A DNA stretch of 64,000 bases, taken from contig ADBE01000112.1 in assembly GCA_000176735.1 (NCBI GenBank), positions 1-64,000 of the forward strand, read 5' to 3'. This stretch comes from Neisseria polysaccharea ATCC 43768. Lineage in GTDB: Bacteria; Pseudomonadota; Gammaproteobacteria; Burkholderiales; Neisseriaceae. Of the stretch, positions 22,733-56,323 are shown piece by piece. Numbering within the stretch: position 1 is the stretch's first letter; every line of letters starts with the position of its first letter. Below the pieces are notes generated by a model. It made no database searches, was not told the origin of the DNA, and saw nothing but the letters and a program-made list of their open reading frames with translations. The position numbers and the translations under genes were made by a program.

Positions 22733-22766
22733 ATGCCGTCTGAAAACCGTTTCAGACGGCATTTTT
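22733..22766. terminator. Bidirectional DUS-pair terminator between priA and nnrS
   Basis: ATGCCGTCTGAA at 22733-22744 pairs with TTCAGACGGCAT at 22751-22762, then TTTT, between convergent genes. Confidence 0.85.
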
Positions 22767-23862
22767 ATTCCGGATCGTCTGTAAACGCGTTCGCTCGAAA
22801 AATCGGTACGAATGTCAGCAGGTAAAGCACGAACACGGCGGCGGTCAGAATCGCGGGGACAGTGATGAAGAATATCGGGTTCACGTTCATTAAAACAGCG
22901 CGCGAGACGGCGGCGGCAAAGAGGATGGGGACGGCGATGCGGCAGAGTTTGGGGTAGTCGAGCTTGGTAAAGCCGCTGTGCCACAGTCCGGCAGTCAGCC
23001 ACACCATCATCACGCCGCCCGTCATGCCGCCGAGGGTAATCAGGTGCATGGGCGCGGAGGCGGGCAGGTTTTGCAATTTCGCCGCGCCTGTCCACAGATA
23101 GCCTGCCGCGGCAAAGAGCTGGAGCAGGTAATAAGTGCGGACGTAGTGTTTGCGCAGGAGTTCGTGATGGTGAAGCTCACGCAGCTTGGCAAGCAGGATG
23201 AAGCCGACGGCGAGCGCGGTAAAACCGGCGGTTTGCGCGGGCAGCCAAAGTTCGGCGGCGGCGTGCAAGAGCAGGAAAGTAATAGCGATGTTTTTATAAA
23301 CGATATTTGGAATAAAAACAGGGTCTTTCAGACGGCATTCTTTAAGGGCTTCCGCGCCCAAAAGAATGCTGACGCGGACGGATACGAACATGACCGCCGC
23401 CATATTCAAATGCACTTGCGCGCGCAGTAAGTTCAAATCGCCGCCGACGGCATAGGCCGTCTGAAAAATAGTAAACGCGGCAAGCAGCATTAAGAGGGCG
23501 AAGTTATCAGTGTTGCGGTCGAGCCAAATCAGCCAGACGCAGAACAGCAGCAACACCAGCCAATAGGCAGCGACGAAAAACGAGGCAGTTTGCGGCGAAA
23601 AGGGCAGTATAGCGGATGCGGCGAGCAATAATGCCGCCAAAATGGTCGAGGCAGGCTTCAGGTTGCCCGAAAAACCCGTCCAATCCAACAAAGCCGCAGT
23701 CAGGAAACCACCATATGCCGCAGGCAGCATGAGTTCTAAGAAGATTTGGCGGTGCAAAATGACGGCACTAGGGCTGATGAAAAACACCAGCGCGCCGAGT
23801 ATGGCAAGCACCGCCGCACTGACGAAAAACGGCCGCATGGGGTGGGTGAAAAATTTATTCAT
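22765..23862 (-). CDS. nnrS: NnrS-family membrane protein
   Basis: A 365-residue inner-membrane protein with about 12 hydrophobic segments. HPMRPFF at the N terminus, the LRAQVHLNMAAVMFVSVRV segment (about 165) and APMHLITLGGMTGGVMMVWLTAGLWHSG (about 270) are NnrS signatures with the conserved His residues. NnrS is a haem/copper membrane protein that protects against nitric oxide stress. Here it is solitary, but it fits a genome that also encodes N2O reduction further along. The gap to the ABC transporter (23863-24261) holds only repeats. Confidence 0.88.
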   Translation of the reverse strand: MNKFFTHPMRPFFVSAAVLAILGALVFFISPSAVILHRQIFLELMLPAAYGGFLTAALLDWTGFSGNLKPASTILAALLLAASAILPFSPQTASFFVAAYWLVLLLFCVWLIWLDRNTDNFALLMLLAAFTIFQTAYAVGGDLNLLRAQVHLNMAAVMFVSVRVSILLGAEALKECRLKDPVFIPNIVYKNIAITFLLLHAAAELWLPAQTAGFTALAVGFILLAKLRELHHHELLRKHYVRTYYLLQLFAAAGYLWTGAAKLQNLPASAPMHLITLGGMTGGVMMVWLTAGLWHSGFTKLDYPKLCRIAVPILFAAAVSRAVLMNVNPIFFITVPAILTAAVFVLYLLTFVPIFRANAFTDDPE

Positions 23863-24261: not shown

Positions 24262-24957
24262 TCACTCATAATAATGAATCCCCTGAAACTCCCTTGCTAC
24301 CACGGCTTCTTCAAAAGCCGAATCGCGTTCGGACAGCGGCGTGGGCAGGGTTATCACGTTTTGCACGTTCATGCCCTTAGTGGAAAGCAGCATGATTTCA
24401 TGGCTCAGGCGCGCGGCTTCGAAGCGGTCGTGCGTTACCAGCATACACGCCATGCCCTGCCGCTCGATTTTCTCCACCAGCATGGCGACCAAAATATCGC
24501 GCAAATCGCGATCCAAACCGACAAACGGCTCGTCCAGCAAAGCAAGGTCGCAGCCGCACAGCAGCAGGCGCAAAAATGCCACCCGTTTTGCCATACCGCC
24601 GGACAACTCGGTCGGATATTTGTTCATATCGCCCGCAGTCAGCCCGACTTTCGCCGCCAGCGCGACGATTTCGCCTTCATCGGGTTTGTCCATAAAAATC
24701 GCGATATTCTGCATCGCGGTCAAGTTTTCCGGCAGGCGGTTTTCCTGAAACAGAAAACCCGTTTTACGGAAAGTATTACGTATCGTGCCCGATTTTGGCG
24801 TTTCCAAGCCCGCAATCAACCGCAAAACCGTCGTTTTGCCGCAGCCGCTCGGCCCGAACAAGGCCTTCACTTCGCCGTGTTGCAGGTTCAAACTGAAATC
24901 GCGCACGATGGGGTCGCGGAGAATTTCAAAACGCACGTTTTCAAGACAGAGCATCAT
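24262..24957 (-). CDS. ABC transporter ATP-binding protein (NitT/TauT-type)
   Basis: A 231-residue cytosolic ATPase with Walker A GPSGCGKTTVLRLIAGLE (about 35-52), signature ELSGGMAKRVAFLRL, Walker B LALLDEPFVGLDRD and switch histidine THDRFEAARL. It resembles ATPases of nitrate/sulfonate/thiamine-precursor importers. ATG 24957 overlaps the permease stop (ATGA), showing translational coupling; a GTG nine bases earlier is also open. It is the last gene of a minus-strand locus with a permease, binding protein and TonB-dependent receptor. The substrate is unknown. Confidence 0.88.
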   Translation of the reverse strand: MMLCLENVRFEILRDPIVRDFSLNLQHGEVKALFGPSGCGKTTVLRLIAGLETPKSGTIRNTFRKTGFLFQENRLPENLTAMQNIAIFMDKPDEGEIVALAAKVGLTAGDMNKYPTELSGGMAKRVAFLRLLLCGCDLALLDEPFVGLDRDLRDILVAMLVEKIERQGMACMLVTHDRFEAARLSHEIMLLSTKGMNVQNVITLPTPLSERDSAFEEAVVAREFQGIHYYE

Positions 24958-25751
24958 CTTCTCCACGGCATAAACAAAATTTCCAAAGGCTTGGTAATCA
25001 GGTATTCAAACAGCGACACAAACACAATGACCAACACCACATAAGCCATCACCGTCGAAGTCTCCAGCATCGCCCTCGCGTCCGCAATCCGCGCGCCCAC
25101 GCCTTCGCTCGCGCCCAAGAGTTCCGCCATAATCACCACCTTCACCCCCATCGCCACCGCCACGCCGACGCTGGAGATCACATAGCCCGTCAGATGCGGG
25201 ATATACAGATAGCGGATTTTTTTCAGACGGCCTAATTTATAAGCGTCAAACAATTCCTCATGCTGCTTGTTCACGCTCGCCATCCCGACCGCCGCACTCG
25301 CAAACGTCAGCGGCGCAACCAACACAATGATGGTAAACAACACACTCGGATTGCCGAAACCAAACCAAAACAGAGCCATTACCACCCAAATAATCGGCGG
25401 CATCGCCAACAAAATCGTAATCACAGGCTTGAGCAACGCCATCGCCGTCTTAAAACTGCCCGCCACCAGCCCCGCCGCCAATCCCGCTACCAGCGCAACC
25501 GAAATTCCCACCACCGACCGCCATAGAGAAATCCCAATTTCGTTTTTCTGAAAATGTTTCAATAAATCAAACGACTTTTGAAACACCTCGACTGGCGCAG
25601 GCAGCATAAACTCGCCGAACACGGCACTGCCCCATGCCCACAACACCACCACCACCATCGCCACACTCAGACCGGCAAAGCCGCTCCAAAGGTAGTCGAT
25701 GATGTAAAACACTGCAGGCTGCGGTTTGCGGATTTTGTCGGTTTTAATCAT
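24954..25751 (-). CDS. ABC transporter permease (NitT/TauT-type)
   Basis: A 265-residue inner-membrane permease with about six hydrophobic segments. The EAA-type loop is GMASVNKQHEELFDAYKLGRLKKIRYLYIPHLTGYV (about residues 155-190), which docks the ATPase. It belongs to the BPD_transp_1 superfamily and most resembles SsuC/TauC/ThiX permeases. It overlaps the downstream ATPase gene by four bases. A 450-base repeat-bearing gap separates it from the binding-protein gene on the same strand. The substrate is unknown. Confidence 0.87.
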   Translation of the reverse strand: MIKTDKIRKPQPAVFYIIDYLWSGFAGLSVAMVVVVLWAWGSAVFGEFMLPAPVEVFQKSFDLLKHFQKNEIGISLWRSVVGISVALVAGLAAGLVAGSFKTAMALLKPVITILLAMPPIIWVVMALFWFGFGNPSVLFTIIVLVAPLTFASAAVGMASVNKQHEELFDAYKLGRLKKIRYLYIPHLTGYVISSVGVAVAMGVKVVIMAELLGASEGVGARIADARAMLETSTVMAYVVLVIVFVSLFEYLITKPLEILFMPWRR

Positions 25752-25788
25752 GGTTTGAGTGTTGGTTGATGGGGATGGTTTGGGGATG

Positions 25789-26112
25789 ATAGGCCGTCTG
25801 AAAAATCAGTTATCAGGATATTTGTATCCGACAGTTTGTTCAGCTATGCCGTAAAGTCGGATGCCGGAGTCTGACCCACGGTTACCACCCGCCGTCATTC
25901 CCGCGCAGGCGGGAATCCAGAAGTTTGACACTGCTGCAATTTTAAAACATTCCTGCAATATCAGAGACTGGATTCCCGCCTGCGCGGGAATGACGGCTTT
26001 TTGTGTACTGTTCTAACTATTATCTGATAGGCCGTCTGAAAAGAGTAGATCGGATACTCGTATCCGACAGCCCAGTTTAGCCGAAATATCGGATTCAAGA
26101 ATCTGATCTACG
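25789..26112. repeat. NIME insert flanked by two related RS-type modules
   Basis: dRS3 units ATTCCCGCGCAGGCGGGAAT (25897-25916) and ATTCCCGCCTGCGCGGGAAT (25972-25991) bracket a spacer. On either side, modules starting GATAGGCCGTCTGAAAA and containing GTATCCGACAG (25789-25880 and 26028-26112) are similar to each other, as if a module had been duplicated round the NIME. The gap 25752-26201 contains no gene. Confidence 0.75.
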
Positions 26113-26201
26113 CTGCTGATAATGTCCTTATAGCCCGTCTGAAAATGACAAGTCAGATTTCATGGTTACTCCACTATTTTCAGACGGCCTCTTTCCTCCT
26201 T

Positions 26202-27179
26202 TTAAGCCAAGAAGAACCCGTTATCCGGCAGCTTGCCGCCCAGAAGTTTCGGGTTGAACTGCATCAGGATTTCGTAAAACTTCAAAATCTCGTCCTTCAC
26301 TTCGCTGCCTTTGGTTACCGTCAGCCGCGCGCCGTCCAAGCCCATGACTAGGGCGGGTTCGGGGGCGGGGAGGTAGTTTTTGCCGATTTTCGCCGCGCTT
26401 TGGCGGTTGGTCAGTATCCAGTTGAGCGCGTTTTTCAAATCCTGATGGAAGAGGTCGAACTGTGCCTTGTGTGCGTGGAAATATTCTTCGTTGGCGATGA
26501 TGCCTGCCATCGGAATCAGTGGTTTGGTGTCAAACGTCTGCCCCCATGCTTTTACCAAATCAAAGCCGCGTACGACGTTTATGCCCATGGTTTTACCTTT
26601 AAGCAGGCTGGCGGTTGCCATCGGTTCGGGCAGGATGACGGCGTGGTAGTCTTTGCTCAAAAATAGTCCGACTGCTTCGGGCGGTGTGGCAGCGTATGTA
26701 ATGCTGACTTTGTGTGCGTCGATTTTCAGTTTTTTCAACAAGGCTTGCAGCACGATGTCGGGCATGTCGTTTTTAAACGGCACGAGGATTTTTTTGCCGA
26801 CCAAATCCTGCGGCGAGGTAATCGCGCTGCCTTTGCACATCAGCTGAGTGATGCCGTTGGTCAAAATATTGACCATGCCGACTTTCTGCCCTTGGTTGCG
26901 CAGGTTTACGCCGACATTACTCGGACTCATCATGACTTTAAATTGTCCGCTCGCCACGCCCGCGCGCAGTTGATCGGGCGATCGCCAGATTTTCAGCGAT
27001 ACATCTGCCTGTTTCGCCAGCTTGCCTTGCAACGCCGCTACGGCAATGGTTACGCTGGGCATCGCAGGCGCGCCGTACACGGTAAATTGCTCTTTACCGG
27101 CTGCCAACAATGAAGGCGAAACGCCTGCGGCTGCCAGCGCGGCGGTCATTTTTAAGAAATCACGTCTTTTCATATCCAT
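26202..27179 (-). CDS. Tat-exported ABC substrate-binding protein (NMT1/NitT-type)
   Basis: A 325-residue protein with a twin-arginine signal, MDMKRRDFLKMTAALAAAGV then SPSLLAAG, so it is exported folded to the periplasm. The body has the NitT/TauT binding-protein pattern: early SVTIAVAALQ, GQFKVMMSPSNVG, VGKKILVPFKNDMPDIV and EPMATASLLKG. ATG 27179 is preceded by AGGAG at good spacing. Tat export may mean that the ligand or a cofactor is loaded in the cytosol, or simply reflects ancestry. It follows the TonB-dependent receptor by 57 bases and is probably cotranscribed. The ligand is unknown. Confidence 0.87.
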   Translation of the reverse strand: MDMKRRDFLKMTAALAAAGVSPSLLAAGKEQFTVYGAPAMPSVTIAVAALQGKLAKQADVSLKIWRSPDQLRAGVASGQFKVMMSPSNVGVNLRNQGQKVGMVNILTNGITQLMCKGSAITSPQDLVGKKILVPFKNDMPDIVLQALLKKLKIDAHKVSITYAATPPEAVGLFLSKDYHAVILPEPMATASLLKGKTMGINVVRGFDLVKAWGQTFDTKPLIPMAGIIANEEYFHAHKAQFDLFHQDLKNALNWILTNRQSAAKIGKNYLPAPEPALVMGLDGARLTVTKGSEVKDEILKFYEILMQFNPKLLGGKLPDNGFFLA

Positions 27180-27236
27180 TTTTTTATCTCCTAATTCTTA
27201 ATAAGCCGGTGTGGCATTCTTTCAGACGGCCTGATT

Positions 27237-29156
27237 TTAAAAAGCCGCATGCAAACTCAACCAATATGTCCTGCCCGGTGCATACACTACGCTGGGGGAT
27301 AGGGCGAGGACGTGGTCGCCGCTGATGTGTTCGGCGTATTTTTTGTTGAACACGTTGTTCACGCCCAAGCGCAAGCCGTATTTGTCTTTGATGTTTACGC
27401 CTGCGTACACATCGGCAACGGTAAAGCCTTTGGCGGCTTCGCGTTTGTCTATGCCCAGACCGCTTGCCGCGTCAAAATCGCCGCGCGTTTGTTTGGCGAC
27501 AAAGCGTGCCGCCGCGCCAATGTTGTAGCTGCCGTGGGCAAAGTAGTTTTTGTAGTCGGCTTGGACGGCGGCTTCAAACGGACGGATTTGATAGAGCGGC
27601 CTGCCGTCGGTTTCGTTGTGTCCGTAGTTGTAGGCGGCTTTGATGCCTGCGGCCCAATGCGGATTGAAGTTGTAACGCGCGTAGGCCTGCGCGGTAATGA
27701 GGCGTGCGTCCACGTTGCGTGTGATGATGCCGCCGCCGTTGGATGAAATACCGCTTTGTCCGTGTGCGCGGTCAAAAATAATCAGGTCTTTGACTTTGTC
27801 CGCCACAAGCGTGCCGCCCACGTTCCATCCCGCGCCTGCGAGCGAGTTCATATAGCCGTTGTAGTAGTCGTTGCGGCTGTCGGCGGTGAGCTTGATGCGG
27901 TTGTGTTTTTCGTTTTTCAGCAGGGGATTGCCCACGATAGCGGCGGCCGGTTTGGAATCTGTTAACGCGCCGTTCGTACGGTTTTGCATGATGGCGGCAA
28001 GCGAGTTGAAGCGTTCGGTGTTGTCGCCGATGCGTTCCAAATGTGCGAGGGAAATGCTGTATTTTTGCGTTTCAGACGGCGTGAAATCGTATTTGAGTTC
28101 GCCCGACAAAGCACGACGGCGCACTTTGCCGTTGAAGTCGTAGCCGTAATGGGTTTTCCAGATTTGTTGTGATGAGGCGAAGGAAAAACCGGGTTTTATT
28201 GGGTTTTCAGGCTGTGCCGTATTTTTGCGTACGTCCGCTTCGTTGAGTTCGTAGCTTAAGCCCAAGCCCAGTTTGTGTTGGTCGTCAAACTTGTAAGACA
28301 AGGTATCGGCAATGCGCCAGCGGTCGAGGTGTACATCGGCGAAACGGTAGCCGTTGAGGAAGTCGCGCATGGGAGTGTGGGCGTTGCGCTCGCCGTTTTG
28401 GCTGTCATTGCGGTAGCTGACGGCGGCGGTGTTGTGGAACTTGCCGAAATCCGCGTCGTGTTTGAGCGAGAAATCATACACTTTGCGGTCAAGCTCTACG
28501 AACACTTGCTGCGGCGTATTGTTTTGGCGCAGGGAGTAATTGTCGGCATGGCGTTTGAGTTTGATGACGCCTGCTTCCGCGCTGACCGTATTGCTCAAAT
28601 CGGCATTACCCCAACGCGCGTTGAGTTTGGCGATGTGGCGTTCGGTATCCAATGCGTCGTTGACGAACTGCGGCTGGCGGTCGTTGTTGATGTCGTTGTG
28701 CAGATAAGTGAGGCGGTATTCTTGATTTTCAGACGGCACGAAACCGAGTACCAAAGCCTGATTGAAGCGGCTGTATTTCCAATCGGTATCGCGCCCGCCG
28801 CCGTCTTTATAACCGTTGGCTTTGGTGTGATTGAGGTTGGCCACGCCGTAAATATTCGCCCCGCGTGCTTGCGCGGTAACGGAGTTGTAAAAACTTTTGC
28901 CGTAAAAGCCGCTGTTTGTCTTCAACGGACGGAAGGCTTGGTCTATGTTTTCGGTAACAAAGTAATGATCGCTGCGGTCGGTGCGGTCGAATTGGTTTTC
29001 GGGGAAATAGCCTTGCGCTGCGGTCAGGGCAATCGGTTTGGGAGGGGAGAAGGTTTTGACGGATTGTATTTCTTCAGTATTTGCCAGTTGTTCTGCCCAA
29101 GACGGAGCAACGGAAAAAACGGTCATCAAAGCCCATGTGAGAGTATTTAGTTTCAT
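27237..29156 (-). CDS. TonB-dependent-receptor barrel, apparently without plug domain
   Basis: A 639-residue outer-membrane protein. The signal peptide is about residues 1-21 (cleavage after SWA). Only about 70 residues precede barrel-like sequence (GANIYGVANLNHTKANGYKDG onward), against the roughly 130-150 of a usual plug. It ends YWLSLHAAF with terminal Phe as expected for BAM recognition, and the late motifs VADVYAGVNIKDKYGLRLGVNNVFNKKYAEH are TonB-receptor barrel hallmarks. It heads the locus with a Tat-exported binding protein and ABC importer, under a Fur-box-like site. It resembles the OprC/NosA branch, but the substrate is unknown. Confidence 0.82.
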   Translation of the reverse strand: MKLNTLTWALMTVFSVAPSWAEQLANTEEIQSVKTFSPPKPIALTAAQGYFPENQFDRTDRSDHYFVTENIDQAFRPLKTNSGFYGKSFYNSVTAQARGANIYGVANLNHTKANGYKDGGGRDTDWKYSRFNQALVLGFVPSENQEYRLTYLHNDINNDRQPQFVNDALDTERHIAKLNARWGNADLSNTVSAEAGVIKLKRHADNYSLRQNNTPQQVFVELDRKVYDFSLKHDADFGKFHNTAAVSYRNDSQNGERNAHTPMRDFLNGYRFADVHLDRWRIADTLSYKFDDQHKLGLGLSYELNEADVRKNTAQPENPIKPGFSFASSQQIWKTHYGYDFNGKVRRRALSGELKYDFTPSETQKYSISLAHLERIGDNTERFNSLAAIMQNRTNGALTDSKPAAAIVGNPLLKNEKHNRIKLTADSRNDYYNGYMNSLAGAGWNVGGTLVADKVKDLIIFDRAHGQSGISSNGGGIITRNVDARLITAQAYARYNFNPHWAAGIKAAYNYGHNETDGRPLYQIRPFEAAVQADYKNYFAHGSYNIGAAARFVAKQTRGDFDAASGLGIDKREAAKGFTVADVYAGVNIKDKYGLRLGVNNVFNKKYAEHISGDHVLALSPSVVYAPGRTYWLSLHAAF

Positions 29157-29168
29157 TTCTTATCTCAT

Positions 29169-29191
29169 GATAATAATTATTATTTATTATC
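29169..29191. promoter_or_regulatory. Fur-box-like site before the receptor gene
   Basis: GATAATAATTATTATTTATT, continued by ATC, matches the Fur repeat pattern (GATAAT units with an inverted ATTATC end). It ends 13 bases before the receptor ATG on the minus strand, in a very AT-rich region, where binding would cover the promoter or start. Iron (Fur) repression is inferred. Confidence 0.6.
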
Positions 29192-29333
29192 CTATTAAAA
29201 AAAATTTAAGTAAATAAGAAAATGATATAAAAAATTTCCAGATAACCGATACAACAGTTAGAACTTGGGCTTGGGAATATCACGGTAGATGAATTTGGAA
29301 CCTCTGTCATGCTATTGTTTTTTATCGCAATTG

Positions 29334-29379: not shown

Positions 29380-31308
29380 TTATTTTTTGTCGTCTTTTAC
29401 TTCTTCAAAGTCGGCATCTACGACGTCATCGTCTTTCTTTGCAGAAGCATTGGTTTGTGCGCTTTCACCTGCTTGGGCTTCGGCTTGCGCTTGAGCGTAA
29501 ACCATTTCGCCCAGTTTTTGGCTGGCTGCACCCAAAGCTTCGGCTTTGGCATCGATAGCTGCTTTGTCGTCGCCTTTAACTGCTTCTTCGGCTTCTTTCA
29601 GCGCGGCTTCGATTTTTTCTTTCTCGGCTGCGTCGAGTTTGTCGCCGTAGTCGGCCAAAGATTTTTTCACAGAGTGAATCAGGGCTTCGGCTTGGTTGCG
29701 GGAAGCGACCAATTCAGTCAGCTTTTTATCTTCTTCGGCATTGGCTTCGGCATCTTTCACCATGCGTTCGATTTCTTCTTCGCTCAAACCTGAAGAACCT
29801 TGGATGGTAATGTTGGCCGCTTTGCCAGTGCCTTTGTCTTTGGCAGAAACGTGCAAGATACCGTTGGCGTCGATGTCGAAAGTAACTTCAATTTGCGGCA
29901 CACCGCGAGGTGCGGGTGCGATGTCGCCCAAGTTGAACTGACCCAAAGATTTGTTGGCAGAAGCGCGTTCGCGTTCGCCTTGCAGTACGTGGATGGTTAC
30001 TGCGCTTTGGTTGTCTTCGGCGGTAGAGAACACTTGCGACGCTTTGGTCGGGATGGTGGTGTTCTTCTGAATCAGTTTGGTCATCACGCCGCCCATGGTT
30101 TCGATACCCAAAGACAGAGGAGTTACGTCCAGTAGCAATACGTCGCTGCGGCCGCCGCTCAATACTTCGCCTTGGATCGCTGCGCCTACGGCAACGGCTT
30201 CGTCAGGGTTTACGTCTTTGCGCGGTTCTTTGCCGAAGAAGTCTTTAACGGCTTCTTGTACTTTCGGCATACGGGACTGACCGCCGACCAAAATCACGTC
30301 GTCGATGTCGCTGGTGCTCAAGCCTGCATCTTTCAATGCGGTGCGGCAAGGCTCGATAGAGCGGGCAATCAAGTCTTCAACCAGGCTTTCAAATTTGGCA
30401 CGGGTGATTTTCATGGCCAAGTGTTTCGGACCGGTTGCGTCCATGGTGATGTACGGCAGGTTAATTTCGGTTTGCTGGCCGCTGGATAATTCGATTTTGG
30501 CTTTTTCGGCAGCTTCTTTCAGGCGTTGCAATGCCATCACGTCTTGTTTCAAATCAATGCCTTGCTCTTTTTTGAACTCAGCGATGATGTAATCAATGAG
30601 GCGTTGGTCGAAATCTTCGCCGCCCAAGAAGGTATCGCCGTTGGTTGCCAATACTTCGAATTGTTTGTCGCCGTCGAGGTTGGCGATTTCGATGATGGAA
30701 ATATCAAAAGTACCGCCGCCCAAGTCATATACGGCTACTTTGCGGTCTTTGTTGTCGCCTTTGTCCATACCGAATGCCAAAGCGGCTGCGGTTGGTTCGT
30801 TGATGATGCGTTTTACGTCCAAACCGGCGATACGGCCTGCGTCTTTGGTAGCTTGACGTTGGCTGTCGTTGAAGTAGGCAGGGACGGTAATCACGGCTTC
30901 GGTTACTTTTTCGCCCAAGTAAGCTTCGGCGGCTTCTTTCATTTTACGCAGGACTTCTGCGGAAATTTGAGGAGGAGACAGCTCTTTGCCTTGTGCTTTT
31001 ACCCATGCGTCGCCGTTGTTGGCTTTGATGATTTCGAAAGGCATGGATTCGATGTCGCGTTGGACTTCTTTGCCTTCAAATTTGTGGCCAATCAAACGTT
31101 TGGCAGCGTAAATAGTGTTTTTAGCGTTGGTTACCGCTTGGCGTTTTGCCGGTGCGCCGACGAGGATTTCGCCACCGTCCAGATAAGCGATAACGGATGG
31201 TGTGGTGCGTGCACCTTCTGCGTTTTCGATAACTTTGGTTTGACCGTTTTCGGAAATGGCCAAACAAGAGTTGGTTGTACCTAAGTCGATACCGATTACT
31301 TTTGCCAT
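29380..31308 (-). CDS. dnaK: Chaperone DnaK (Hsp70)
   Basis: A 642-residue Hsp70 starting [18 protein letters not shown]. The nucleotide-binding domain (1-385) has [13 protein letters not shown] and the linker [15 protein letters not shown] begins the substrate-binding domain (about 390-510); the helical lid ends [14 protein letters not shown]. It folds and protects proteins with DnaJ and GrpE. The upstream region carries a sigma-32-type promoter (31377-31405). grpE is about 5 kb away with a similar promoter; dnaJ is not in the window. Confidence 0.97.
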
Positions 31309-54355: not shown

Positions 54356-56323
54356 ATGTCAGACGAAAAATTAGAACAAAACGGCTTGAGCCGTCGTTCA
54401 TTCTTAGGTACGGCCGCCGCTTCCGGTGCAGGTATTGCCGGTGCGGGTCTGTTGGGTTTGGCGGGTTGCTCTAAAGACGGCGAACAGGCTGCCGCTAACG
54501 CTTCCGGAGCGGCCCCTGTCGCCAAGGAGCATGGTGAAGCCAAACCAGGTCAACTGTCTTCCGAAGTCGGTCCGGGCGAACTCGACCAATATTACGGCTT
54601 CCTTTCCGGCGGTCAGTCCGGCGAGATGCGCCTGATTGGTCTGCCTTCCATGCGCGAACTGATGCGTATCCCCGTGTTCAATATGGACAGTGCGACCGGT
54701 TGGGGACGTACCAATGAGAGCTTGAAAGTCCTCAACGGCAATATTACTGAAGAAACCCGTAAATTCTTACAAGACAGCGGCCTGCGCTGCTACCCCAACG
54801 GCGACCTTCACCACCCGCACTTGTCGTTTACCGACCAAACTTATGACGGCCGCTATGCCTATGCCAACGACAAGGCAAACAACCGCGTCTGCCGCGTGCG
54901 TCTGGATGTGATGAAGGCCGACAAAATCATCGACATCCCTAATGCTTCAGGTATTCACGGTCTGCGTCCGCAACGTTATCCGAAAACCGGTTATGTCTTT
55001 GCCAACGGCGAACACATTACTCCTGTTAGTGGCGTAGGCAAACTGGATGATGCAAAAACCTGGAATGCCGTGTATACCGCCATCGACGGCGAAACCATGG
55101 AGATCGCATGGCAAGTATTGGTTGACGGTAACCTGGACAACGGTGATGCCGACTATCAAGGCAAATATTCTTTTGCCACCTGCTACAACTCCGAGCGCGC
55201 GCTGACCGTACAAGGTGCGTCTTCCAACGAGCAAGACTGGTGCGTCGTTTTTGACCTGAAAGCCATCGAAGAAGGCATCAAAGCGGGCGACTTCAAAGAA
55301 GTTAACGGTGTGAAAATGCTGGACGGTCGCGCTGAAGCCAAATCCAAATACACGCGTTATATCCCTGTGCCGAACTCTCCTCACGGCTGTAATGCTTCTC
55401 CCGACGGCAAATACATCATGCTCAACGGCAAGCTGTCTCCGACCGTTACCGTATTGGATGTCAGCAAGCTGGACGATTTGTTCGCCGGCAAAATCAAAGA
55501 GCGCGATGTCGTCGTAGCCGAACCGCAACTGGGTCTCGGCCCCTTACACACTGCATTTGACGGTCGCGGCAATGCTTATACGACATTGTTTATCGACAGC
55601 CAAATGGTGAAATGGAACATCGACGACGCAATCAAAGCCTACAAAGGCGACAAAGTCGATCCGATCAAACAAAAACTTGACGTTCACTATCAACCGGGCC
55701 ATAACCATACGACCATGGGCGAAACCAAAGAAGCCGACGGTCAATGGCTGGTGTCTTTGAACAAGTTCTCTAAAGACCGCTTCTTGAATGCCGGCCCGTT
55801 GAAACCCGAGTGCGACCAATTGATCGACATCTCCGGCGACGAAATGCGTCTGGTACACGACAACCCGACTTTTGCCGAACCGCACGACTTGTGTTTGGTT
55901 GCCGCGTCCAAACTGAACCCGGGCAAAACTTGGGACCGTAACGATCCTTGGTTCTGGCAGGATGCTTTGGAACAGGCGAAAAAAGACGGTGTCGAGCTGG
56001 AAAAAGCTGCCAAAGTCGTACGCGAAGGCAACAAAGTACGCGTGTACATGACTGCCGTTGCGCCTGCATTCAGCATTCCGCAGTTTGAAGTGAACCAAGG
56101 CGACGAAGTAACCGTTTACGTTACCAACGTCGAAACCATCGAGGATCTGACCCACGGCTTCACTTTGGAAGGCTACGGCATCGCTATGGAGATTGGCCCG
56201 CAAGCCACTTCTTCCGTAACCTTCAAAGCCGTCCGTCCGGGCGTGCACTGGTACTACTGCCAATGGTTCTGCCACGCATTGCATATGGAAATGTCCGGTC
56301 AGATGATTGTTCATCCCAAATAA
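54356..56323 (+). CDS. nosZ: Nitrous oxide reductase NosZ, lipobox-bearing
   Basis: A 655-residue multicopper enzyme reducing N2O to N2 in the periplasm. The Tat signal is [16 protein letters not shown], followed by LAGC (35-38), so it may be a membrane-anchored lipoprotein. CuZ ligands are visible in [36 protein letters not shown] and EPHDLCL. The C-terminal CuA domain has [19 protein letters not shown] with both Cys and His and Met. The enzyme looks complete and the gene is unbroken. It lies between nosR and nosD. Confidence 0.95.

Follow-up and report, generated by a model that had tools for sequence, protein, structure and literature searches.

TonB-dependent receptors are defined by their plug, and how plug, TonB and substrate cooperate in opening the barrel is a long-standing question. 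Legionella LbtU, of a different barrel family, is a plug-less, TonB-independent siderophore receptor. The receptor OprC binds copper through two plug residues, Cys143 and Met147, together with two barrel residues, His323 and Met325 (PMC8610252). Chitoporin closes its pore with a free N-terminus, which is ejected by substrate (PMC5768706), and an engineered plug-less FpvAI barrel is uptake-deficient and partly rescued by soluble plug supplied in trans (PMC10994204). Here we describe a locus in the first 64,000 nucleotides of contig ADBE01000112.1 of Neisseria polysaccharea ATCC 43768 (assembly GCA_000176735.1; this whole stretch is hereafter the window), in which a receptor-type barrel without a plug, termed REC, precedes the genes of a binding protein and its importer. 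A natural plug-less receptor was not found in the literature covered, which held few subscription papers and included the accessible parts of PMC10994204, PMC7782687 (a plug displaced in crystals) and PMC12215075 (motor proteins).

REC has no match to Pfam Plug (PF07715) or to PF00593. The TIGR01778 (TonB-copper) profile matches residues 95-639 from profile position 135 on, at 4.8e-54 and with 184 bits, below its cut-off of 472. Because the open frame measures only 640 residues from stop to stop, no plug is concealed upstream, which excludes one hidden by a wrongly chosen start. An AlphaFold model built on 10 sequences gave a barrel of moderate confidence (mean predicted local distance difference test score, pLDDT, 59.6) with 21 strands of at least eight residues, the first at residue 91; 22 strands are expected from kinship. 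Ahead of residue 91 the model shows no strand, only the signal helix, a short helix of four residues (71-74) and two isolated bridge residues. Its top structural matches are TonB-dependent receptors (PhuR, Z 19.8; OprC, Z 18.4), and the C-terminal residue is, by eye, a phenylalanine. When profiles were compared, the barrel of the REC group matched the plugged family at E 8.8e-68, the match beginning just after the plug, and the N-terminal segment showed no likeness to the plug (probability 0.1%). A by-eye resemblance of the N-terminus to the plug's DPP--YI-P--FD, as of a plug remnant, thus found no support in the profile comparison. The original prediction that too few residues precede the barrel to form a plug therefore agrees with Pfam, AlphaFold and profile comparison alike, and no compact plug is predicted at residues 22-90.

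The same pattern was seen in relatives. Pfam Plug was found in none of the 14 plug-less rows scanned (nine in a set of ten whose only match was the control L100, and all five from another order) and in all eight plugged controls (L100, L127-L132 and L023). PF00593 exceeds its cut-off in the five relatives of the other order, in L099 and in L094, and is absent from L095 and L096. A lone plug gene acting in trans was also sought: a whole-genome Pfam Plug search returned nine matches at E<=0.001, all of them in frames of 705-914 residues that are full receptors (one with an internal stop), a search that a very degenerate lone plug could escape. REC belongs to the barrel family, yet neither to the copper receptors nor, by the plug test, to the TonB-dependent receptors proper. 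Neisserial N-termini carry a loose match to a TonB box (DEIQPV or EEIQSV), which is not conserved outside Neisseria. Of the predicted label, the barrel kinship stands; with the plug missing and the TonB box unconserved, the name TonB receptor is doubtful.

The plug-less form is shared. REC occurs in 11 of 46 genomes of the genus, uninterrupted in ten (90-94% identity) and interrupted in one; the N. bergeri protein is 18 residues shorter, and G008 holds a short remnant. At 1e-80 it was found in 13 of 83 family genomes, including two of genus g8 at 49% identity. Named plug-less matches are N. viridiae, N. elongata, N. bergeri, N. gonorrhoeae (interrupted) and two rumen Neisseriaceae metagenome-assembled genomes (MAGs), to which are added Lonepinella koalarum (57% identity) and two MAGs that bear the label Campylobacter. 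One more case, G231, came from a draw of 369 genomes at class level; in its order seven of 32 genomes match at 1e-30, six of them plug-less (31-37% identity) and one plugged (L107). Among 398 genomes drawn from the phylum, 16 matched at 1e-40 and three of these are plug-less (G000, G009 and G231). The other 13 have long frames (683-808 residues), and their matches begin no earlier than profile position 103; all six that were opened carry the copper motif and Pfam Plug, and there was no further plug-less case in this draw, with the remaining seven judged by length alone.

In a tree built on barrel columns, a 100/100 branch with a long stem separates 21 plug-less proteins from 14 plugged copper receptors. 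Because the root was placed at the midpoint, we infer rather than show a single loss of the plug, in an ancestor resembling the copper receptors. The 21 comprise all plug-less proteins collected, leaving aside the broken copy from the gonococcus, the remnant in G008 and duplicates of loci already represented (among L010-L020, L090-L093, L101-L106, L113 and L114); L112 was read from an internal ATG, without its first residues, and L088 from an in-frame point without an ATG. The 14 plugged relatives were picked by hand, leaving near-identical paralogues (L022, L024, L026, L027, L029, L033-L036, L038 and L039) and the short loci L116-L126 unused, except those re-fetched as L127-L132. An explanation of the group by pseudogenes or assembly error was rejected on its uninterrupted frames, purifying selection and the tree. 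We also observed that the receptors of L094, L095 and L097 (rumen MAGs labelled Neisseriaceae and Campylobacter) are closely related though labelled as different phyla, so that gene transfer or mis-binning is possible. The receptor, permease and NnrS genes of N. gonorrhoeae DSM 9188 (G015; L054, L098) are interrupted or shortened while its binding protein and ATPase read through; with the locus decayed there, the uptake system is not a trait of that strain. In G008, L085 retains remnants of the whole five-gene set, with only receptor residues 1-59 recognisable.

The departure from the copper receptors reaches into the barrel. All four OprC ligands are present in 14 of 14 plugged relatives, and both the plug motif CxxxM and the barrel HxM are absent from 21 of 21 plug-less proteins, in which the HxM position reads RxA (20) or RxV (1). 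This change in the barrel half suggests a new ligand, beyond mere truncation, and with the four ligands gone we rejected identity as a copper receptor. Beside several of the plugged copper receptors (L128 to L131) lie genes resembling, by eye, ExbB/TonB-type energy genes or a membrane transporter.

The plug-less architecture is under purifying selection in Neisseria. Over 36 pairs of nine sequences, the ratio of nonsynonymous to synonymous substitution rates (dN/dS) comes to 0.138 for the whole protein; the signal peptide has 0.366, the barrel 0.112 and the stretch of residues 23-90 a mere 0.093. The nine are the uninterrupted Neisseria rows apart from that of N. bergeri, which carries a deletion. 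The N-terminal segment has the motif F-x-P-P-x-x-I-x-P ... N-Q-F-D. Its P38, P39, I42 and N54 are invariant in all 21 plug-less proteins, and F36, P44, Q55, F56 and D57 are kept in 20, the sole row lacking P44 being the window protein, with L44 for the third proline. Residues 34-57 rank 91st of 616 windows of residues in conservation across 12 representatives, which makes them a conserved stretch of the protein without being its most conserved one. By analogy with chitoporin, the conserved N-terminus may gate the barrel, which would then not be an always-open hole. Where an open or differently gated pore had been proposed, the pore need not be open, as a conserved segment of about 68 residues could fill the lumen.

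The locus and its surroundings comprise the following features.

27237 to 29156, minus strand: REC, a plug-less TonB-receptor-like outer-membrane barrel of 639 amino acids (open reading frame, Pfam, TIGR01778, AlphaFold, tree), with a signal-peptide-like start at about residues 1-22 (by eye), the conserved N-terminal segment at 23-90 and the barrel at about 91-639
29169 to 29187, minus strand: Fur-like operator, -31 to -13 from the REC start codon (14 of 19 consensus positions, footprint)
29186 to 29214, minus strand: promoter-like TTTACT-17-GATAAT adjoining the operator (by consensus; regional matches are no commoner than in shuffles)
26202 to 27179, minus strand: substrate-binding protein of NitT/TauT type (NMT1) with a twin-arginine translocation (Tat) signal, 325 amino acids (open reading frame, Pfam, fold)
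26049 to 26068, minus strand: terminator-like hairpin in the gap between the binding-protein and permease genes (by consensus)
24954 to 25751, minus strand: ATP-binding cassette (ABC) permease (BPD_transp_1), 265 amino acids (open reading frame, Pfam)
24262 to 24966, minus strand: ABC ATPase, 234 amino acids, overlapping the permease gene by 13 bases (open reading frame, Pfam)
22765 to 23862, minus strand: NnrS-family membrane protein, a second paralogue and fifth member of the set (Pfam)

All four genes that had been predicted on one strand (receptor, binding protein, permease and ATPase) are minus-strand frames of the open-reading-frame list; the fifth gene, NnrS, and a 450-base gap with its hairpin had been overlooked. 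Upstream of REC lies dnaK (29380-31308), with 223 bases between its end and the REC ATG. REC is separated from the binding-protein gene by 57 bases, and the ATPase from NnrS by 399. Co-transcription of the locus genes seems plausible, though the 450-base gap and its hairpin make a single transcript for all of them uncertain. The same gap holds, by eye, inverted repeats attcccgc...gcgggaat (25888-26000), which resemble the neisserial small repeats named dRS3. The neisserial uptake word GCCGTCTGAA occurs 85 times in the window against 0.14 expected, and a nitrous oxide reductase propeller domain lies at 55673-55885 on the plus strand, inside a 667-residue frame.

Pfam cut-offs are passed by the NMT1-type binding protein, the BPD permease and the ABC ATPase, which make up a NitT/TauT-type ABC importer. 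The Tat signal foreseen for the binding protein is confirmed by PF10518 over its cut-off, and R5 and R6 are invariant in 15 of 15 binding proteins. Of the 46 genomes of the genus 20 carry the binding protein, as do 22 of the 83 in the family. It directly follows REC in all 13 REC-bearing family genomes (itself interrupted in G014), in L096 and L099, and in five of six plug-less genomes of the other order; in L095 it follows a 107-residue cupin gene (L095:10903-11223, in a MAG labelled Campylobacter), a possible clue to the substrate. The loci L094, L095, L097 and L099 continue with permease, ATPase and NnrS in that order, with 352-400 bases ahead of the permease in L094 and L097 and the NnrS of L099 a fragment below the Pfam cut-off. 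The co-occurrence expected of the four genes is supported from the side of REC, which nearly always stands just ahead of the binding-protein gene and often ahead of permease, ATPase and NnrS genes as well, with REC present in only 13 of the 22 family genomes that have the binding protein and NnrS also in the set. Sets of binding protein, permease, ATPase and NnrS without REC occur in L083 and in L089 (by eye, NnrS by Pfam), the latter headed by a further binding-protein copy of G231 with no receptor; further copies were also seen in G452, G453, G454 and G456 of the other order.

NnrS (PF05940) scores 160.7 bits in the window, against a cut-off of 28. The family is found in all 46 Neisseria genomes, and the better match of the window genome lies elsewhere (G000:C117:3881-4996), the copy at the locus being the second, divergent paralogue. 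All 20 genomes that carry the binding protein have that second NnrS, against one of the 26 that lack the binding protein (G020; Fisher p 4e-12, kinship not corrected); the second copy is broken in G015 and G008 and lies away from the binding protein in G004 and G031. NnrS proteins contain heme and copper (PMC1274295, PMC6769254) and occur in nitric oxide-responsive regulons (PMC1274295). The accessible literature on NnrS and TonB-dependent receptors in Neisseria, PMC6769254 included, yielded nothing on this locus.

Candidate Fur sites were scored against the 19-base Fur consensus, with p values from first-order shuffles. The predicted Fur-box-like site 13 bases ahead of the ATG was recovered by consensus and footprint as the best 19-base match of the window REC, 14 of 19 at -31 to -13 (p 0.043 in a 180-base scan, 0.026 in a 70-base scan); taken alone, it is a weak candidate for a Fur site. 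The 70-base scan took in 14 of the 21 plug-less promoters (leaving out L046, L050-L053, L088 and L112), which score 13-15 of 19 and reach p<=0.05 in 11 cases (not L049, L094 or L111), against none of 15 control upstreams (ten binding-protein, three permease and two dnaK). In the 180-base scan 11 of 19 promoters, the gonococcal one included, reach 0.05. In Neisseria, in the rumen rows L094, L096 and L097 and in Lonepinella the top-scoring site falls within -38 to -7 relative to the start codon, despite differing flanking genes; it falls elsewhere in L095, L088 and L108 (180-base scan).

The binding-protein model (mean pLDDT 74.6) matches 3hn0 (Z 23.9), PqqT with pyrroloquinoline quinone (PQQ; Z 21.6) and SsuA (Z 20.7), and a pyrimidine-binding protein is also among its structural neighbours. 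Residues invariant in 15 binding proteins include W65, N92, N104, D138, D141, Y162, E168, E185 and R204; no invariant Cys, His or Met was found among the same 15, which points to an organic ligand more than to a soft metal on its own. The likeliest substrate is a small organic molecule, probably an anion, or else such a molecule chelating iron, and not free copper. PQQ itself was considered as substrate on account of the PqqT match and set aside, having no other support.

Taken together, we favour, at a probability of roughly one in two, an iron-regulated importer whose barrel is gated by its conserved N-terminus, probably works without TonB and moves something other than copper. The locus would be an uptake system responding to iron shortage. 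The N-terminal segment may lie in or under the lumen and gate the barrel, much as chitoporin and CymA are gated by their own free N-termini; substrate, not TonB, would push it aside, and it may also dock the binding protein. The binding protein would capture the substrate, the ABC transporter would take it in, and NnrS, at the inner membrane, would probably act on the imported compound or the iron pool, or protect either. The transfer of substrate to the binding protein, independence from TonB and the role of NnrS are the parts that we infer. More tentatively, plug-less barrels derived from TonB-dependent copper receptors may as a class work without TonB, the N-terminal peptide gating a wide pore and handing substrate straight to a dedicated Tat-exported binding protein, an active transporter that would have reverted to a selective pore with a gate, controlled by iron.

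Several observations weigh against the favoured reading. The place of the N-terminal segment is uncertain, as residues 21-90 of the model have a pLDDT of 22-27; most structural matches align from residue 35 on, at the location of the plug, a placement not to be over-read given that low confidence. The FpvAI result is a caution that barrels lacking a plug may depend on a partner, and one for REC is conceivable. In the 180-base scan eight of 19 promoters miss the threshold (L047, L049, L051, L052, L095, L099, L088 and L111; L088 worst at 0.39), and no Fur-like site at p<=0.05 precedes four binding-protein genes of REC-less Neisseria (L076, L077, L078 and L083), which suggests that the iron-type switch accompanies REC. 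The binding protein occurs without REC in eight Neisseria genomes, and a ninth (G008) has remnants only. Permease and ATPase follow in six of the eight (G007, G019, G022, G023, G026 and G034; neither was seen in the fetched stretches of G004 and G031), so the importer can do without REC, and G454 has REC without an adjoining binding-protein gene. Between the binding-protein and permease genes stand the 450-base gap, its repeats and the hairpin. The substrate reading draws on fold and promoter, and bicarbonate-, nitrate- and zinc-bound proteins are also among the fold neighbours. Lastly, the nearest plugged relatives are copper receptors, so that REC may yet have a metal role.

Some of these points feed alternative explanations. 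REC could still depend on TonB, its short N-terminus being a minimal plug with a degenerate TonB box that TonB pulls out. The neisserial DEIQPV/EEIQSV, the conservation of the segment and its low-confidence alignment with plug regions from residue 35 on would fit such a plug, but the box-like stretch is not conserved outside Neisseria, neither profiles nor Pfam detect plug similarity, and only 171-208 residues precede the HxM column, against 282-321 in plugged proteins; we think this rather unlikely. Less likely again, REC might be a surface receptor, or a pore shut by its own extracellular loops, with its nearness to the importer reflecting shared regulation and not passage of a substrate. 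Long inter-strand stretches of the model (such as 376-415), the binding protein without REC in eight of 20 Neisseria genomes (plus the one with remnants) and a terminator-like site parting the REC and binding-protein genes from the permease are compatible with it. Yet REC has the binding protein directly behind it even where the flanking genes are unrelated (dnaK by match; others, by eye, fumC- and ruvA-like), the pairing spans bacterial families, and REC is under purifying selection in Neisseria.

A copper or denitrification system, in which the barrel passes copper or a chelate for nitrous oxide or nitrite reductase with NnrS as partner, appears improbable. It draws on the kinship with OprC-type copper receptors, on the heme- and copper-containing NnrS family (PMC1274295, PMC6769254) and on the enrichment of nos_propeller, which 17 of the 20 genomes carrying the binding protein have, against 11 of the 26 that lack it (p 0.006, uncorrected for kinship). 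Loss of the four copper ligands in 21 of 21 proteins, the 15 binding proteins devoid of invariant Cys, His or Met and the Fur-like operator speak against it. That the receptor gene is a decaying, functionless copper receptor is very improbable: the interrupted gonococcal copy in G015 (L054) and the remnant in G008 (L085) are what decay would leave, but the gene is uninterrupted in 10 of 11 Neisseria genomes, its overall dN/dS is 0.138, and the same plug-less form recurs in distant groups.

A natural plug-less group that has kept its barrel, its N-terminus, its partner genes and probably its iron control constitutes an experiment of nature on the purpose of the plug, and raises the question of how so wide a pore closes and what passes through it. 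The locus also offers a testable uptake system linked to NnrS, whose role is unsettled.

Set beside the described systems, REC is closest to the OprC/NosA copper receptors (TIGR01778): OprC is its best sequence match in the PDB and a fold match to its model (Z 18.4, root-mean-square deviation, rmsd, 4.3 over 504 residues), although REC lacks the whole plug and the CxxxM and has RxA or RxV in place of HxM. The binding protein shares its fold with PqqT, SsuA and other proteins of the NitT/TauT type, from which its low identity (16-19%) and its Tat signal set it apart. TdfF, considered as an identity for REC and compared by description only, is likewise a neisserial receptor with no known ligand; it is reported to be iron-repressed and is described as an 80 kDa protein restricted to pathogens (PMC9519893), whereas REC has 639 residues, no plug and an interrupted copy in a gonococcal genome. 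The engineered FpvAI (PMC10994204) is, like REC, a TonB-dependent receptor barrel minus its plug; it is laboratory-made and uptake-deficient, while REC is natural and conserved. Chitoporin of Vibrio, and CymA named with it (PMC5768706), are barrels that likewise have no folded plug, and a free N-terminus can shut them. CymA is a poor fold match to REC (Z 15.6, rmsd 9.2) and chitoporin is a 16-strand trimer; the likeness of chitoporin to REC would be one of gating.

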